A stretch of 32,564 bases of DNA, from contig CAIOTC010000021.1 in assembly GCA_903861205.1 (NCBI GenBank), positions 1 through 32,564 of the forward strand, given 5' to 3'. The translations under genes and the position numbers were made by a program. The notes below the pieces were generated by a model, which ran no database searches, had not been told where the DNA came from, and worked only from the letters and a program-made list of their open reading frames with translations. This DNA is from an uncultured bacterium. Lineage in GTDB: Bacteria > Patescibacteriota > Minisyncoccia > Phycocordibacterales > DATDWN01. Of this stretch, positions 6,118 to 31,015 are shown in pieces. Positions within the stretch are counted from its first letter, which is position 1. Every line of letters begins with the position of its first letter.

Positions 6118-6239
6118 AAAACTCACGTGGTAGCATGCTTTTTCGTCGCCAGAATAAATCGCTGCTGCGATTTTTCTTCCTGCTCATGTCTTCACGCATT
6201 CCGCAATGCGCCAAAAAAGCATGCTACCACGTGAGTTTT
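6118..6239 (-). repeat. Long hairpin element, family 1, copy A
   Basis: Two 26-base arms (6118-6143 and 6214-6239) are perfect inverted copies around a core of about 70 bases. On the minus strand the core starts GGCGCATTGCGGAATGCG and ends TTCTGGCGAC. It contains two smaller hairpins, CGCATT-GCGG-AATGCG and AATCGC-AGCA-GCGATT. The core matches the one at 12229-12297 at 59 of 69 positions by hand alignment, but the arms do not match. It lies between the tRNA-Gly end and the cupredoxin stop codon, so it could also act as a terminator for either. See the findings for the paired changes. Confidence 0.9.
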
Positions 6240-7247: not shown

Positions 7248-8150
7248 CTACCAACTTCCAGAGGAACCGCCGCCGCCGGAAGAACCCCCGCCGAAACCGC
7301 CAAAGCCTCCGCCTCCAAATCCGCCGCTTCCTCCGCCGAAACCTCCACCACCGAGAAACCACGGAGGCCGCGGTCCGCCATCTTTGTGATTTTGGTAAGC
7401 GCGCGAAACTAAAAAGTCAAAAAGTAATCCGAAACCAACAAGCAAAATGAAAACCGGAATGGCCACGAGAAGCGAGTGAATTAGAAACAACCACAAGCCA
7501 ACGCCAACGACTCCGCCAAGCACGCCTCCAGCCCACCAGGATTTGGAACGAGCCAGAATGGCGCCGACCCATTGCAAAACGATAAAGCCGACAATGAAAA
7601 TAAATTGCCAGTTCCAACCGCCGGAATTTTGCTGCGGCTGGTAATCCTGCGGGACAATTTGCATTCCGCCGAGTGCCGTGATCATTTTGTCCACCGCGCC
7701 GTTTATACCGCCGTAATAATCGCCCGCCCGAAATGCCGGAGTAACAACGTCTTGCTGAATGTAAGACGTGCCGATGTCAGTCAAATCGCCTTCCACGCCG
7801 TAACCTGTCTGAATACGCGTTTTGTGCTCGTCGAGAGAAATCAGAAAAAGCACACCATTATTTTTGTCTTTTTTGCCAATTCCCCACGCCGTGAAAATTT
7901 CCTGGGCCACGTTTTCGATCGTGTCGCCGTCAAGCGACTGAATTGTCACTACCGCGATCTCGTTGGTCGATTGCTTCTCATACGCCTCCAGCTTTGTCTC
8001 CAACGCCGTCACCTGCCCCGCCGTCAAAATTTTCGCGTAATCCTGGACAAAACCGGTCGGTCTGGCAGGTATAGTAAAAGCCAACACTGAAAGTGGTAAA
8101 AGAAAAACTGTGAGAACTATAATTTTCAATTTCCAATTTCCAATTTTCAT
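7248..8150 (-). CDS. TPM-domain membrane protein (YgcG-like)
   Basis: 300 residues. A signal peptide or anchor (about 8-24) is followed by a TPM domain (about 31-160: VQDYAKILTAGQ, STNEIAVVTI, ARAGDYYGGINGAVD-type end), three hydrophobic segments between about 182 and 245, and a C-terminal tail made of GGGGFGG and GGSSGGGGSSGSW. TPM proteins of this layout are widespread and often lie next to LemA, as here; roles in photosystem repair and in phosphatase activity are known for plant members only. The lemA gene is directly upstream on the same strand, but a long hairpin element (8191-8312) sits between them. No Shine-Dalgarno site; the start lies at the edge of a CATTGAA/TTCAATG palindrome. Confidence 0.9.
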   Translation of the reverse strand: MKIGNWKLKIIVLTVFLLPLSVLAFTIPARPTGFVQDYAKILTAGQVTALETKLEAYEKQSTNEIAVVTIQSLDGDTIENVAQEIFTAWGIGKKDKNNGVLFLISLDEHKTRIQTGYGVEGDLTDIGTSYIQQDVVTPAFRAGDYYGGINGAVDKMITALGGMQIVPQDYQPQQNSGGWNWQFIFIVGFIVLQWVGAILARSKSWWAGGVLGGVVGVGLWLFLIHSLLVAIPVFILLVGFGLLFDFLVSRAYQNHKDGGPRPPWFLGGGGFGGGSGGFGGGGFGGFGGGSSGGGGSSGSW

Positions 8151-8190
8151 TGAATTTTCAATGAGTCAATTTTCAAAAAATAATCACTGA

Positions 8191-8312
8191 GCAAATTTCG
8201 TTGAACAATAACAATTTTGGAGACTCCGGACGCCGGCGGGCGGAGGCTTGAGGAATTTTTCAGCAGAAAAATATCCGTGCTCCAAAATTGTTATTGTTCA
8301 AAAGAAATTTGC
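8191..8312 (+). repeat. Long hairpin element, family 2, copy B
   Basis: The arms (8191-8222 and 8280-8312) pair over 9 outer bases (GCAAATTTC/GAAATTTGC), a small bulge, and 22 inner bases that end in TTTTGGAG/CTCCAAAA. The core holds a GC hairpin CGCC-GGCG-GGCG (8231-8242) and an AT hairpin around CAGCAG (about 8253-8276). The 22821-23023 element has the same 32-base left arm layout and the same core. It is placed between lemA and the TPM gene of one operon. Confidence 0.9.
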
Positions 8313-9392: not shown

Positions 9393-11149
<1,757 letters not shown>

Positions 11150-11551
11150 TTATTTGAGCACCGCGAGAATGTTCTCCTCTTTTATCAAATAATATTCCTC
11201 CCCATCAACAGTGATGTCATCATACCCGTATTTCGAAAAGGCCACGATGTCGCCAACAGAAACAGAAACCGGGATTCTTTTGCCGTCATGCCACTCGCCT
11301 GGACCGACAGCAATAACCTTGCCCTGCTCCGATTTTTCTTTCTTGTCAGCGTCCGGCAAGATAATCCCGAAATTATTTTCCTTTCCGCTTTTCTTGTCCA
11401 ATTCCTCCTTTGTAAAAGGTTTGATCAAAATCCTGCTCCCGAGCGGCATAATTCCTGATTTGCCCGAGGCAACCCCTAGGGCAACTTTTTTACGCAAGGA
11501 CTGTCCTTGCGAAACTTTCTTTGCTTTCTTTTTTAGCACTTTTTTGGCCAT
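11150..11551 (-). CDS. groES: Co-chaperonin GroES with a lysine-rich N-terminal extension
   Basis: 133 residues; the usual length is about 95-100. The GroES beta-barrel begins near residue 34 (IMPLGSRILIKPFTKEE) and continues with the mobile loop (SGKENNFGIILPD) and VGPGEWHDGKRIPVSVSVGD to the end. The first ~33 residues are a basic extension (MAKKVLKKKAKKV and on), part of which (SQGQSLRKK) is encoded by a 19-base palindrome that also occurs in the dihydroorotate dehydrogenase gene. A shorter start is not obvious: no in-frame Met lies between residue 1 and IMPLG. It caps the GroEL ring. No CIRCE operator is seen upstream; a TATTAT box lies four bases before the start. Confidence 0.95.
   Translation of the reverse strand: MAKKVLKKKAKKVSQGQSLRKKVALGVASGKSGIMPLGSRILIKPFTKEELDKKSGKENNFGIILPDADKKEKSEQGKVIAVGPGEWHDGKRIPVSVSVGDIVAFSKYGYDDITVDGEEYYLIKEENILAVLK
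11493..11511. repeat. Coding palindrome inside groES
   Basis: CGCAAGGACTGTCCTTGCG is a perfect palindrome around one base and is identical to 30553-30571. Here the minus strand reads it as SQGQSLR in the N-terminal extension. Confidence 0.9.
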
Positions 11552-12129: not shown

Positions 12130-12177
12130 CCAAAGGTCTGGCCTTTGGTGCCCAATTTCCCAAGGCCAGACCTTGGG
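12130..12177. repeat. Two facing palindromes
   Basis: CCAAAGGTCTGGCCTTTGG (12130-12148) and CCCAAGGCCAGACCTTGGG (12159-12177) are each hairpins. Their central 13 bases are also inverted copies of each other, so the pair can fold as two small hairpins or one longer one. They share the NCAAGG-CAG-CCTTGN plan with the coding palindromes in groES and the dihydroorotate dehydrogenase gene. Confidence 0.75.
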
Positions 12178-12200
12178 TGCGAATGCAAAATTCACCACTA

Positions 12201-12324
12201 GCAAATTCCGCTAAGAAAACTCATTTTGGGCGCATTGCGGAGTGCGTGAAGACACAAGCAGGAAGAAAATTTTCAGCAGAAAATTATTCTGGCGACCAAA
12301 ATGAGTTTTCTTAGCGGAATTTGC
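12201..12324 (+). repeat. Long hairpin element, family 1, copy C
   Basis: Arms of 29 bases (12201-12229 and 12296-12324) are perfect inverted copies. The core (12229-12297) holds CGCATT-GCGG-AGTGCG and ATTTTC-AGCA-GAAAAT hairpins and matches copy A (6118-6239, opposite strand) over 69 positions, except for 10 changes. The arm sequences are unrelated to those of copy A beyond the first few bases. It lies directly upstream of the secG promoter. An open frame that runs through it (12110-12314) is judged spurious. Confidence 0.9.
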
Positions 12325-22820: not shown

Positions 22821-23023
22821 AACACAAATTTCGTTTAAACATGACAATTTTGGAGACTCCGGAGCGCGGCGGCGCGAGGCTTGAGGTGAGAAATGATATT
22901 ATCATTTCGCAAGACCTTGAACTTCTGTAATCAGAAGTGAAAGGTGTACCGTCCCTGTAAGGGATATTCAGCAGAAAAATATCCGTGCTCCAAAATTGTC
23001 ATAGTTAATAAGAAATTTGTGTT
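22821..23023 (+). repeat. Long hairpin element, family 2, copy D, with nested palindromes
   Basis: Arms: AACACAAATTTC/GAAATTTGTGTT outside and 15 paired bases ending TTTTGGAG/CTCCAAAA inside, with a mismatched segment between. The GC hairpin is GCGC-GGCG-GCGC where copy B has CGCC-GGCG-GGCG. About 80 extra bases (about 22885-22965) not in copy B carry four small palindromes: 22890-22908, 22910-22919, 22921-22938 and 22952-22964. The right arm is directly followed by the -10 box of the MFS gene. It fills the space between divergent genes. Confidence 0.9.
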
Positions 23024-23034: not shown

Positions 23035-24219
23035 ATGAATAAATTTTTATCTCCTTTCAAAAACGGAAAACTGCTCAATATTATTTTTCTGTCGAACGTT
23101 CTGCTTTCTTTTCATTATTACCTGATCGTTTACATCAACTCCACTTTTCTCTCCGGATTTTTTTCCGAAACGCAGGTCAGCACGCTTTATGTCATCGGCT
23201 CACTTCTGAACATTTTCCTTTTCATCAACGTTTCAAAAATTTTAAACTCGATCGGCAATTACAAGACGGCCATGTATGCTCTCGTGGTGGAAATATTGGT
23301 CACGCTGGGACTGGCTGTGGCTTCGAATCCGTTTCTGATCGGATTTTTCTTCATTCTTCATTTGGCCACCATCGCTTTCATTTCTTTCAACCTCGATATT
23401 TTTCTGGAAGGCCTCATTACCGACGAAACCAAAACCGGTAACATTCGCAGCATGTACATGACTTTGGCCAACGCCACGCTCGTCATCGCACCGCTTATTA
23501 TTTCGCTCCTGCTCGTTCACAACACCTACTGGCATATTTACGTCGTTTCTTCCCTCTTTCTTATTCCGATGATGTATTATCTGCGAAAAAATTTCGGTGG
23601 GAAATTCATCAAGGACAAAGAAATACCGTATATAAAAATCAGGCAAACGATCAAGCAATATCTGGCCGACAAAAATCTTTACAATATTTTCTTTTCCCAA
23701 TTTTTGCTCCAACTTTTCTACGCTTTCATGGTTGTTTACACTCCGCTTTATTTGGAAAAATATATCGGATTTTCGTGGACGGAAATCGGCATTATTTTCA
23801 CCATCATGCTTTTGCCTTTTATTATTTTCGAAATTCCCGTTGGTGACTTGGCAGACGAAAAATACGGCGAAAAAGAATTTATGACGGTCGGACTCATCGT
23901 CATGGGAATTTTCACCATGATCATCAGCTTTATCACCGGAAAAAATTTTTGGCTTTGGACAATTGTTCTTTTTATGACCCGCGTCGGAGCAAGTTTCGTC
24001 GAAGTGACATCGGACAGTTATTTTTTCAAACACGTCGACCAAGAAAAAACGGACATCATCAGTTTTTTCCGCCTGACTCGCCCACTTTCCTACATCGTCG
24101 CACCTATCATCGCCGCCCTCGCTCTCCAATTCGTGCCATTTCAATACACATTCATCATCATCGGAGCGTTGATGATAATTGGGACGAGATATAGTCTAGC
24201 ATTGGTGGATACGAAATAA
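23035..24219 (+). CDS. Major facilitator superfamily transporter
   Basis: 394 residues from the ATG at 23035; an in-frame TTG 18 bases earlier lies in the hairpin element and is unlikely. About 12 hydrophobic segments are seen, in two halves of six split by a basic loop near residue 190 (YYLRKNFGGKFIKDKE). The motif between segments 8 and 9 reads PVGDLADEKYGEKEF, close to the MFS loop pattern G-x-x-x-D-x-x-G-R. The substrate is not clear. No Shine-Dalgarno site. It is not in an operon; the gene downstream is convergent. Confidence 0.88.
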   Translation: MNKFLSPFKNGKLLNIIFLSNVLLSFHYYLIVYINSTFLSGFFSETQVSTLYVIGSLLNIFLFINVSKILNSIGNYKTAMYALVVEILVTLGLAVASNPFLIGFFFILHLATIAFISFNLDIFLEGLITDETKTGNIRSMYMTLANATLVIAPLIISLLLVHNTYWHIYVVSSLFLIPMMYYLRKNFGGKFIKDKEIPYIKIRQTIKQYLADKNLYNIFFSQFLLQLFYAFMVVYTPLYLEKYIGFSWTEIGIIFTIMLLPFIIFEIPVGDLADEKYGEKEFMTVGLIVMGIFTMIISFITGKNFWLWTIVLFMTRVGASFVEVTSDSYFFKHVDQEKTDIISFFRLTRPLSYIVAPIIAALALQFVPFQYTFIIIGALMIIGTRYSLALVDTK

Positions 24220-24282
24220 TTTTTAATTTAAAATTTTTAATTTTTAATGAATTTTCAATCTTTAAATTTTCAATAAATTCTT
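24220..24282. repeat. AT-rich repeat between the MFS and S23 genes
   Basis: AATTTTTAATTTAAAATTT units with AATGAATTTTCAAT near 24248-24261. It is the same type as at 11030-11149 and 26633-26731 and overlaps the last codons of the four-helix-bundle gene. Confidence 0.55.
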
Positions 24283-24639
24283 GGTTTTTATGGTTGTTAC
24301 AATTTTATGAAAAATCATCGTGAGCTCTTGAGCTTCCTGCCAATACCTTTTCAATTCATCTAATTTGTCTGGATAATAACCTGCCAACATGCGTAACCAA
24401 TATTTTGTTTCCTGGGATTCTTTCTTACAAATGTAAATTTTACTTGCAAAATCTTTTCGTGAGCTTGAGCCATTGGCTTCCATGTAATTTGCGCCAACAC
24501 TTGTTGCAGACCTGACAAGTTGAGTTAGTATTGGAAGTACAATCGGATCTCGCTTTGCAATGCGACAAAATTCAATAATTTGCTCACCAAACTTAGCAGT
24601 TCTTTCTTCTAAATCGTATTTCATTTTTAATTTTTCCAT
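24262..24639 (-). CDS. Four-helix-bundle protein (S23 family)
   Basis: 125 residues from the ATG at 24639, or 120 from the Met at residue 6 (24624), which gives the family's usual opening MKYDLEERTAKFGEQIIEF. The signature middle is QLVRSATSVGANYMEANGSSSRKDF, followed by KKESQETKYWLRML. The family was first seen in insertions within 23S rRNA genes and is also common as separate genes in CPR genomes; its function is unknown. No rRNA gene is nearby. AT-rich repeat tracts flank it on both sides, which suggests a mobile cassette. Confidence 0.9.
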   Translation of the reverse strand: MEKLKMKYDLEERTAKFGEQIIEFCRIAKRDPIVLPILTQLVRSATSVGANYMEANGSSSRKDFASKIYICKKESQETKYWLRMLAGYYPDKLDELKRYWQEAQELTMIFHKIVTTIKTKNLLKI

Positions 24640-26622: not shown

Positions 26623-26632
26623 GGTTTAAAAA

Positions 26633-26731
26633 CAAATTTTTAATTTTTAATTTAAAATTTTTAATGAATTTCTAAATTTAAAAATTTAATCATTGAAAAT
26701 TCAATAAAAATTAAAAATTTTAAATTAAAAA
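26633..26731. repeat. AT-rich repeat between the GH130 genes
   Basis: About 100 bases of AATTTTTAATTTAAAATTT units in both orientations with an ATTGAAAATTCAAT palindrome (about 26693-26706), able to fold back on itself. No gene. It is the same type as at 11030-11149. Confidence 0.6.
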
Positions 26732-28681
26732 TTATTTTACTTTGTTAATATGCGGTTTCGGCAGAGCATCTTTTTTCAAACTTTTCAAAAGCTCCTCCAT
26801 TTCGATCTGCGCCACACAGCAGACTTTGTCGCCACCGCCGTAATAAACATGGAGCATTCCGTCGATATTCACCGCTCCGCCAGGATAAGCAATGCCGGGT
26901 TTGCCGTCATTTTCGTAAAATTCCGATGGTGTCAAAATCGGTCTGCGGCATCGCGCCAAAACTTTTGACGGATCGTTCAAATCCAGCAGCATGGCGCCGA
27001 TTTTGTATTTCCCGCCATCAAGCCGATCCACCGCGTTATAAATAATGAGCCAACCGTCTTTTGTTTTTATCGGAGTCGAACCAACGGACATCTTCAAACT
27101 GTCCCAGAAAGATTTTCGCGGTAAAATCATTTTTTCTCCGGTCAGCCATCTTTTACCTTCGCCGAATTCCAGCTCCGGCACAATGTCGAGCATGATGTTC
27201 GGCCACATTCGGTGAAAAATATAATAATTACCGTTTATTTTTTCCGGAAAAAGAACAACGCTTTTACTGCCGACTCCCGGCGGTGACATGAGTTGAGACT
27301 TTTCCCATTTCCATTTTTTGTGAAGGAAATCGTCCACTGAAATCGAGGTCAGGACCGTGCGCATCGGCCAAACGCCGGTGTGCGCCACGTAAGTCATGTA
27401 AACTTTATCGCCAATTTGAGTCACTTTCGGATCCTCGCATCCGCCCCAGCTGCCACCGGATGAAAAAATCGATTCGTCTCTCTCAGTTTTTTCACCATCG
27501 CCTTTTTCAAACCAATATTTCGGAGAATAAACCGGTTTGGCCAGTCTCTCGTCGATGTTCAAACCGTCACTACTCGAGGCGTAACCGATCGATGAATATC
27601 CGTCGCCGCCAACCGCCCTGTAAAGCAAATGCACTTTGTCGCCCAAACGCAGAGCTGTCGGATTGAACGCGCCATCTTTTTCCCAATGCAAATCCGTCGG
27701 AGAAAGTATTGGGTTGTTCTGCCATTTTTTGAGCAAAATCTGTTTTCGATTTTTGTGATCGGAAATGGTGTCACCGGGCAAATTGATAAAGCCAATCTGT
27801 CCATCAAGCGAGGCCGTGTAAATGCGGAAAGATTTTTCGGTTTTTGTTTGAATGGGCACAACGCCAAGCACACGAACCCTGTTGTGCGTTTCAATCGGCA
27901 CTTCTATCACCGGTAATTCCGTCTGCCACAAAAGTCGTGTCGGTTCATTTTTGTCAAAAATAGCCACACCAACTTTGAGTAATCTCTCCTCGCCGATTTT
28001 TTCATTGTGCAACCAAACATCCTTCAAAATATCAACGGTATGCTCGGCGCAGTAGAAAACAGCAAACTCGTCATCAACAGGCAAACCTCCGGCAATGGAA
28101 AACGGCACACCGTCAAAAAAGTTCCAATGCGGGGCGCGCGGTGGATCGACAATTTCCCATTTGGTTTTCGCTTTTCTGGCAATTCTCAAAATGTGATCAC
28201 CAAAATAAATGTTTGGGGATTTTCCTTTTTCGTCGTAAGCGACAATGCCGGCCGTTTTGATTTTTGTGATGACATCCTTCACGGTCCATTTTTTCCCATC
28301 TTTGCTTTCGGCAGAAACAAAAACTTTGCCGGACTCGGTGTTTCTGGTGTAGGTTAAAACCAAATTTTTATCCAATTTTTTATCACAGCAGGAAAATCTG
28401 AAGTCGGAGCAAATGGCAATGTTTTCTTTTTTCTTTTTGCTGTCAGTCAAACTCACCTTGCTTGCCGTGCCATCAAATTTTGTATCGCTTTTACCGGAAG
28501 TGATATAAAGCTCGCAATCCGTTCTGGAGAATTTGCGAAAAAGTAGAAAAAGTTTGTTTTTTTCAAATCCGACGGCAAGCGGTTCGGTCATGAAGTCGTC
28601 GGCCGCAGCTGACACTTTCGCGGCTTTTACTTTCGTAGCTGACGCCTTATTTCTTAATTTTATTTTCTTTTTTGCAGGCAT
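26732..28681 (-). CDS. GH130 family protein with extra N-terminal propeller-like domain
   Basis: 649 residues from the ATG at 28681, chosen for AGGA seven bases upstream and for its position one base after the stop of the cupin gene. A Lys/Ala-rich start (about 1-30) is followed by a domain of about 270 residues with blade-like repeats (YITSGKSD, VFVSAESKDGKKWTV, FRIYTASLDGQIGFI) but no GH130 motifs. The GH130 domain (about 325-640) has FNPTAL, YRAVGG, GCEDPK near 415, FPEKINGNYYIFHRM, GSTPIKTKDGWLIIYN and YYGGGDKV, a complete set by eye. It probably acts on beta-mannosides in the cytoplasm. The first domain may be a degenerate propeller copy, as the neighbouring gene is a true double. Confidence 0.9.
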   Translation of the reverse strand: MPAKKKIKLRNKASATKVKAAKVSAAADDFMTEPLAVGFEKNKLFLLFRKFSRTDCELYITSGKSDTKFDGTASKVSLTDSKKKKENIAICSDFRFSCCDKKLDKNLVLTYTRNTESGKVFVSAESKDGKKWTVKDVITKIKTAGIVAYDEKGKSPNIYFGDHILRIARKAKTKWEIVDPPRAPHWNFFDGVPFSIAGGLPVDDEFAVFYCAEHTVDILKDVWLHNEKIGEERLLKVGVAIFDKNEPTRLLWQTELPVIEVPIETHNRVRVLGVVPIQTKTEKSFRIYTASLDGQIGFINLPGDTISDHKNRKQILLKKWQNNPILSPTDLHWEKDGAFNPTALRLGDKVHLLYRAVGGDGYSSIGYASSSDGLNIDERLAKPVYSPKYWFEKGDGEKTERDESIFSSGGSWGGCEDPKVTQIGDKVYMTYVAHTGVWPMRTVLTSISVDDFLHKKWKWEKSQLMSPPGVGSKSVVLFPEKINGNYYIFHRMWPNIMLDIVPELEFGEGKRWLTGEKMILPRKSFWDSLKMSVGSTPIKTKDGWLIIYNAVDRLDGGKYKIGAMLLDLNDPSKVLARCRRPILTPSEFYENDGKPGIAYPGGAVNIDGMLHVYYGGGDKVCCVAQIEMEELLKSLKKDALPKPHINKVK

Positions 28682-29851: not shown

Positions 29852-31015
29852 CTATTTATAATCCGCGCCGATGGCTTGGGAGATGTTGGAAAAACCGTCG
29901 CGACGCAAAAGTTCGACGAGACCGAGATTAATTTCGGAGATGAGTTGTGGGCCTTCAAAAATCATACCGGTGATGAGTTGGACTAGTGTGGCGCCGGAGC
30001 GGATTTTTTTGTAAGCATCCTCGGCCGAAAATATCCCCCCGCAACCGATCAATATGAATTTTCTAGCTTGGCCGTCGGCGGTAACTTGCGGAGTTAAGAC
30101 TTCCCGACGATAAATATATGAGAGCAAATCGTCAGACAAATCCTGCAATGGTTTGCCGGAAATTCCGCCGACACCTGGCAAATTATTTTCCAAAACTTTC
30201 GGATTATTTTTTTGTTTTGTCAGATTGGAGCAAATAATTCCATGAACTCGATGTCTTCTCAAAACATCCAAAATAGCGTCAACTTCATCAATCGTTTTGT
30301 CGGGTGACATTTTGACGAAAATCGGTTTTTTGGTTTCGATTGCATCGAGCTTGGAAAGCAAAACGTCGAGTTTGATCGGCTCGGTAAAAGGCTGACCGCC
30401 CTGGGCATTCGGACAGCTGATGTTGACCGTGGTGTAACTTCCGATATCGGCGAACGCCTCAAAAGCTTTGGCGTAATCAGCTGCTGCCATGCTGGTATCT
30501 AAATTTTCCTCACAGTTTGTCATGGCCACGCTCACCCCAATCGGAAACTTTTCGCAAGGACTGTCCTTGCGGAATTTGTTTTTTAGACGCTCGGAAATTT
30601 CTTCGGAGCCGTTGTTTTTTAAACCATAATAGACAACGTATCCGCGAGATTGCGTCAAACGCCAAAGCCGTGGTCGTTTGTTGCCTTCGCACGGATAGCC
30701 GGTGACAGAACCGACTTCCTCGAAACCAAAACCGACTGACGGCATAATTTGCGTCAGCTCAGCGTTTTTGTCAAAACCGGCCGCCAAACCGACAGGATTT
30801 TTGAAATTTATTCCTAGAACAGTCTGTTCCAGCATTTTGTTCGAATACCCGAACCAAAGGCGCGTTTTCCAGCGGGTGAGAGAAAATTTTCCAAGAAATT
30901 TACCGACACCAAGAAACAGATTATGCATATCCTCCGGATCAAACGGAAAAATGATAGGTTTCAAGACAAAACCGTACAAAAATCTCATCAGTCTATTGCG
31001 CCCCTTTGTGAACAT
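29852..31015 (-). CDS. pyrD: Dihydroorotate dehydrogenase, class 2-like
   Basis: 387 residues from the ATG at 31015. An amphipathic N-terminus (LMRFLYGFVLKPIIF), as in quinone-linked class 2 enzymes, is followed by NPVGLAAGFDKNAE, GSVTGYP, FVKMSPD, GVGGISGKPL and IGCGGIFSAEDAYKKI (FMN phosphate site). It oxidises dihydroorotate to orotate in pyrimidine synthesis at the inner face of the membrane. The catalytic base position reads NISCPN; class 2 enzymes usually have serine (SSPN) and class 1 enzymes cysteine. A 19-base palindrome inserts RKDSPCE between SERLKNKF and EKFPIGVSVA. No other pyr gene is nearby. A TATAAT box with an extended -10 stands 6 bases before the start. Confidence 0.94.
   Translation of the reverse strand: MFTKGRNRLMRFLYGFVLKPIIFPFDPEDMHNLFLGVGKFLGKFSLTRWKTRLWFGYSNKMLEQTVLGINFKNPVGLAAGFDKNAELTQIMPSVGFGFEEVGSVTGYPCEGNKRPRLWRLTQSRGYVVYYGLKNNGSEEISERLKNKFRKDSPCEKFPIGVSVAMTNCEENLDTSMAAADYAKAFEAFADIGSYTTVNISCPNAQGGQPFTEPIKLDVLLSKLDAIETKKPIFVKMSPDKTIDEVDAILDVLRRHRVHGIICSNLTKQKNNPKVLENNLPGVGGISGKPLQDLSDDLLSYIYRREVLTPQVTADGQARKFILIGCGGIFSAEDAYKKIRSGATLVQLITGMIFEGPQLISEINLGLVELLRRDGFSNISQAIGADYK
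30553..30571. repeat. Coding palindrome inside the dihydroorotate dehydrogenase gene
   Basis: CGCAAGGACTGTCCTTGCG is identical to 11493-11511 in groES. Here the minus strand reads it as RKDSPCE, a different frame from the SQGQSLR of groES. It falls in a loop between conserved segments. Confidence 0.9.

Follow-up and report, generated by a model that had tools for sequence, protein, structure and literature searches.

The Elements in the Window

The window comprises the whole of contig G000:C21 (32,564 nt), part of a genome of 884 kb in 24 contigs. It carries two elements of a first palindrome family, copies A and C, and two of a second. Copy A lies between a plastocyanin-like ORF on one side and a tRNA gene on the other. 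Both copies had been described in an earlier note as cores of equal length between perfect but unrelated arms, and this description was confirmed: the cores are near-identical, and the arms, of 29 bp in copy C and 26 bp in copy A, are perfectly self-complementary and unrelated in sequence. The three pair changes reported across one stem, AATCGC-AGCA-GCGATT in A against ATTTTC-AGCA-GAAAAT in C, were also found. Compared with shuffled sequence, the folding energies of the two elements, copies C and A, have z values of -11.3 and -10.5. The features are as follows, with bit scores from R1, a superfamily covariance model built from 44 diverse cores.

12201..12324, plus strand: copy C, complete family-1 element (fold against shuffles; R1, 66.6 bits)
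12201..12229, plus strand: 5' arm of copy C, 29 bp, pairing perfectly with 12296-12324
12235..12261, plus strand: hairpin 1 of copy C, conserved version (alignment A2, columns 37-63)
12264..12290, plus strand: hairpin 2 of copy C, the superfamily signature (AGCA loop 12275-12278, bulged A 12286)
12296..12324, plus strand: 3' arm of copy C, partner of 12201-12229
6118..6239, minus strand: copy A, complete family-1 element (R1, 58.5 bits)
Parts of copy A, minus strand: 5' arm 6239-6214; hairpin 1 6206-6180; hairpin 2 6177-6151; 3' arm 6143-6118
8191..8312, plus strand: family-2 element, with the architecture and hairpin 2 of family 1 (R1, 70.8 bits)
22825..23019, plus strand: family-2 element, interrupted, its hairpin-2 region broken at about 22887-22963 by a multi-hairpin module

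The module at 22887-22963 (TGAGAA..TTCGCAAGACCTT..AAGGTGTAC..CCCTGTAAGGG) is inserted beside hairpin 2 of its element. Similar multi-hairpin modules lie between hairpins 1 and 2 at a locus of genome G006 and upstream of hairpin 2 in locus L045 (G025), so that the cores look modular. Copy C is preceded at 12130-12199 by a second hairpin (GGTCTGGCCTTTGG..CCAAGGCCAGACC), which occurs with identical spacing in L009 and is part of a longer composite repeat, while L022 and L025 have in common a different, downstream hairpin.

Other repeats occur in the same contig. A 25-nt palindrome, CGCAAGGACTGTCCTTGCG, lies at 11490-11514 and 30550-30574, each time within a coding region (a groES-like and a dihydroorotate-dehydrogenase-like ORF) and in differing frames, and possibly represents another coding palindrome family. 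Intergenic AT-rich inverted and direct repeats (AATTTTTAATTTAAAATTTTTAAT), which are 60-93% alike and could form large hairpins, are found at 8119-8181, 11038-11149, 24213-24316, and 26630-26739.

The Conserved Fold

The consensus unit is a three-way junction of about 110-150 nt, in which a long stem formed by the arms is capped by two hairpins. Hairpin 1 is GC-rich and consists of 3-4 bp, an asymmetric G/A-rich internal loop, and a further 3-4 bp. Hairpin 2 has 7 bp under an AGCA-type loop, a single A bulged out of the 3' strand, and then 4 bp; its AGCA loop and bulged A form the signature common to the superfamily. Hairpin-2 loops in all families read A-N-Y-A with the bulged A. This combination recalls phage coat-protein operator hairpins, but the bulge is on the other side, and the resemblance is probably a coincidence.

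The existence of further copies with compensatory changes was borne out. Family 1 numbers about 33 copies in the source genome (71-nt core query), and in an alignment of 31 of its copies 24 of the 45 pairs have changes on both sides, with 97.6% of cells paired. The covariation score of this family is 0.390, versus 0.136 for shuffled and 0.05-0.12 (maximum 0.117) for slid controls. Across genera, 16 of the 19 aligned pairs covary, hairpin 2 itself being fixed by the choice of loci. The CGCATT-GCGG-AATGCG stem, in which the earlier note had seen a T-A pair turn into T-G, is not a conserved one: two of its pairs are broken in 17 of 31 copies, and covariation is absent. In some copies, A and C included, this stem is stable locally as an alternative fold. 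The conserved hairpin 1 is formed by TTGC..GCAG and GCC..GGC (columns 37-40/60-63 and 44-46/55-57), which are 99.1% paired and have a covariation of 0.444 versus 0.186 when shuffled. Within families, the distal arms are partly conserved (AAATTTCGTCGA.., TCTCGTTGA..) and contain conserved non-Watson-Crick motifs, TYTCGTYGA ... AAAGA.

The two strands are not equivalent. When arms were aligned with an equal penalty for G-T and A-C mismatches, the stems of 74 diverse loci showed 75 G-T versus 19 A-C (p 5e-9), and 30 G-T versus 3 A-C were counted among elements whose strand is antisense to the known neighbour genes. As the excess persists in the antisense setting, it is the fold of one strand that matters, independently of read-through mRNA; this defined strand may act as RNA or as single-stranded DNA. 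Part of the G-T excess could derive from single-strand deamination rather than selection. The proposal that the fold is kept and not the bases, by selection or by a copying process, was thus upheld on both counts: selection is indicated by the strand asymmetry, with G-T far above A-C, and copying is most likely involved as well, given the copy-specific palindromic extensions.

Copy Number and Taxonomic Distribution

Besides family 1, the source genome contains about ten copies of family 2, which has the same architecture and an identical second hairpin. A covariance-model search had been suggested as a check on the elements; run with R1, it gave 60 matches at E<=0.01 in the 0.88-Mb genome, and R1 matches were obtained in 29 of the 31 genomes searched. 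The 21-nt hairpin-2 signature gave 403 matches in 113 of 197 genomes of the order, with about 13 in a reversed control. Outside the order, a phylum-wide sample yielded isolated single hairpin-2 matches, mostly non-consensus. Named records with the signature are Parcubacteria (Nomura-, Zambryski-, Taylor-, Kaiser-, Adler-, Nealson-, Colwell-, Harrison-, Wildermuth-, and Uhrbacteria), with the exception of one Brachyspira and one Burkholderiales record, which are read as chance and contamination. In genome G042 (contig C7), at about 279230-279482 and 404654-404931 (L294, L301), two to three junction units form tandem arrays with a spacing of about 85-120 bp.

The searched phages, plasmids, and viral contigs held no element matches, and an origin from any of these was rejected on that account. 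Rfam returned nothing relevant at gathering or permissive thresholds, and among the papers searched none joins Parcubacteria or Nomurabacteria with such repeats. The elements apparently constitute a previously undescribed, order-wide superfamily of small mobile palindromes of ultra-small Parcubacteria.

Mobility

Gain and loss at orthologous sites, occurrence in both orientations, and insertions within essential genes indicate that the unit is mobile, as the earlier note had suspected. At an intergenic locus of a sister genus, G002 carries a family-1-like element, G008 one of a different subfamily in the opposite orientation, and G010 a short empty spacer. On the 3' side of dnaJ, the elements of the source genome and of G014 differ and point in opposite directions, and in most other relatives the site holds no element and no palindrome. 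At the end of an orthologous ruvC-like gene, the L124 and L159 elements have cores inverted relative to each other and unrelated arms. Upstream of a divergent promoter, elements with different cores are present in six species. Persistence at some sites across several species of a genus may reflect a local function. The G002/G008 intergenic site is occupied in G011, G009, and G013 (L210, L213, L215) by other palindrome families, ATTCGTAT-based and CACCCTGTGAAAT-based, and is a hot spot for several unrelated palindromes.

Compared with solved homologues, TsaD has about 32 and Fmt about 22 additional residues made of the element, and domain hits place in-frame insertions in the genes for Dus, ArgS, and XerC. 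Elements within genes encode recurrent peptides, e.g., SIAQAxEPSIANFQQKIMC. These in-frame copies in tsaD, fmt, dus, argS, and xerC are the strongest evidence for insertion. Target-site duplications are not definable at the element ends because the arm ends are fuzzy. Among about 110 named loci no recurrent mobile gene lies beside the elements, the neighbours being housekeeping genes. Orientation is near random, the upstream gene being co-directional with the element in 16 of 30 and 48 of 84 cases. Integron attC sites were considered and set aside because the copies are scattered among housekeeping genes and face either way. A role as 3' UTR or terminator was also rejected, orientation bias being absent.

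Origin of the Arms and Alternative Explanations

The arms end at neighbouring stop codons or extend a few codons into the host gene; in L124 and L159, one arm includes the last codons of the host gene. In the flanks of family-1 elements past the consensus arm, complementarity averages 4.63 within a copy versus 1.47 across copies (permutation p<5e-5), and these extensions are AT-rich without T-tracts. Template switching is known to create stems, homogenise their arms, and invert spacers (PMC8794818, PMC8604942). Copying of one flank into the other is the better reading of how the arms arise, because most empty dnaJ sites lack a palindrome, because the AT-rich extensions have no T-tracts, and because template switching of this kind has been published.

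The copy-specific extensions could nevertheless come from selection or from insertion into existing palindromes. If the core inserted into inverted repeats already in place, such as terminators, the arms would be host hairpins, in line with their ends near stop codons and their variation from copy to copy. This origin is highly unlikely: the inner arms of most copies follow a common consensus, elements also occur between divergent genes and within ORFs, the extensions lack the T-tracts of a terminator, and the element-free dnaJ ends of relatives, mostly without a palindrome at the site, count against it. A multi-copy structured RNA that serves the cell, whether made by a family of non-coding RNA genes or acting at mRNA ends, is unlikely too. 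The conservation is RNA-like, with fixed loops and bulge, tolerated G-U pairs, and covariation; elements frequently lie directly 3' of stop codons, and several species retain them at the same divergent promoter region. However, many copies have no room for a promoter of their own, presence and absence turn over, insertions are in frame within essential ORFs, and no Rfam family is matched. A structured RNA had been entertained in the earlier note; a simple cis-acting one is unlikely because the elements face their neighbouring genes almost at random (48/84, 16/30).

The agent of movement was sought among resident enzymes. Mobilisation of REPIN-like elements on single-stranded DNA by resident Y1/RAYT transposases, for which the earlier note had considered the hairpins as substrates, would fit the six Y1_Tnp genes of the source genome, the strand-specific fold with a small imperfect hairpin and an extrahelical base, and the in-gene insertions known for REPs (PMC6006769). 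It is very unlikely, as the GTAG or GTGG guide that defines REPs 5' of the hairpin foot (PMC6006769) is missing at every helix foot in 30 of 30 family-1 copies (0-2 nt 5' of the foot), and Y1_Tnp shows no significant association, being present in 28 of 53 element-rich versus 86 of 144 other genomes (197 genomes; odds 0.76-1.6). G002, 98% complete, has elements without a Y1 candidate. A leading/lagging bias, the mark of IS200/IS605-type single-strand elements, is likewise absent (GC skew on the element strand -0.0015 +/- 0.086, n=101; 21 of 36 in G042), and the predicted proximity to tnpA/RAYT genes did not materialise, family-1 sequence being missing from all six Y1_Tnp loci up to 1.5 kb on each side. 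Retro-mobilisation, in which a resident reverse transcriptase would copy a transcript back, draws on RT genes in 61 of 113 genomes with at least one hairpin-2 match versus 22 of 84 without (p 1e-4), a weak association that may be phylogenetic. There is no link with copy number (27/53 versus 56/144, p 0.15), and the high-copy genomes G042 (17 hairpin-2 matches, 100% complete) and G002 lack RVT_1; this route is highly unlikely.

Proposed Explanation

The elements probably, though by no means certainly, constitute a superfamily of small non-coding, non-autonomous mobile palindromes of Paceibacteria/Parcubacteria, RPE/REPIN-like, whose stem is built by fold-back template switching. They might spread as single-stranded DNA or as a transcript copied back, and a putative trans-acting factor would recognise the unit through hairpins 1 and 2. 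After insertion, the nascent strand would fold back on the junction as the site is replicated, so that one flank is copied into the other by the polymerase through quasipalindrome template switching. Such fold-back copying could build, lengthen, and repair the stem and invert the core, and it would explain perfect arms of unrelated sequence. A bolder version, which seems quite doubtful, would make the element a self-priming, selfish Y-shaped chromosomal DNA hairpin that converts the host sequence beside it into an inverted arm of its own by rolling-hairpin-like fold-back synthesis, without a dedicated transposase.

Comparison with Known Systems

Rickettsia palindromic elements (RPE) are dispersed folded palindromes of about 100-150 nt, located in frame in conserved protein genes and in intergenic regions. 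The present elements resemble them as dispersed folded palindromes of similar size, and in-frame insertion in conserved protein genes was found here as well, for TsaD and Fmt by comparison with solved structures and for Dus, ArgS, and XerC through domain hits. They differ in belonging to unrelated bacteria, in being mostly intergenic, and in their Y-shaped two-hairpin core with the universal AGCA/bulged-A hairpin and free, copy-specific arms. MITE-like repeats of the ERIC/IRU, Correia/NEMIS, BOX, and Bcr1 types have conserved terminal sequences; they are alike in size, intergenic location, and conserved secondary structure, whereas in the present elements the ends are the variable part. Parvovirus (AAV-type) terminal hairpins consist of a long stem and two short capping hairpins, and fold-back synthesis copies the stem. 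The likeness to them would be one of working principle only, as the present elements have the long stem and two short hairpins but no Rep gene and lie at internal chromosomal sites.

REPIN/RAYT systems (PMC3116915, PMC6006769) are likewise high-copy, short, extragenic, and palindromic with a strand-specific fold; the present elements differ in that they lack a guide tetranucleotide, neither adjoin RAYT genes nor co-occur with them, and have arms whose sequence is not conserved. By analogy, they seem to work like RPE/REPIN-type non-autonomous elements, yet lack the REPIN features for which they were tested. Template-switch quasipalindromes (PMC8794818, PMC8604942) have in common with them copying that builds and homogenises arms, and spacer inversion; those mutations affect ordinary sites, whereas here the process is coupled to a dispersed conserved core.

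Significance

The superfamily of mobile Y-shaped hairpins is real, abundant, and specific to the order, and its sequence-free, apparently host-derived arms are an unusual feature. With 60 model matches in 0.88 Mb, the elements represent an abundant mobile hairpin class in bacteria with streamlined genomes, where few repeats would otherwise be expected. Covarying long stems in intergenic regions of CPR genomes need not mean functional RNA, and unusual insertions in TsaD, Fmt, or ArgS are not necessarily protein domains. The elements separate selection for the fold from mutational copying of the arms, which are usually confounded in covariation analysis, and provide hundreds of natural replicates for testing template switching.
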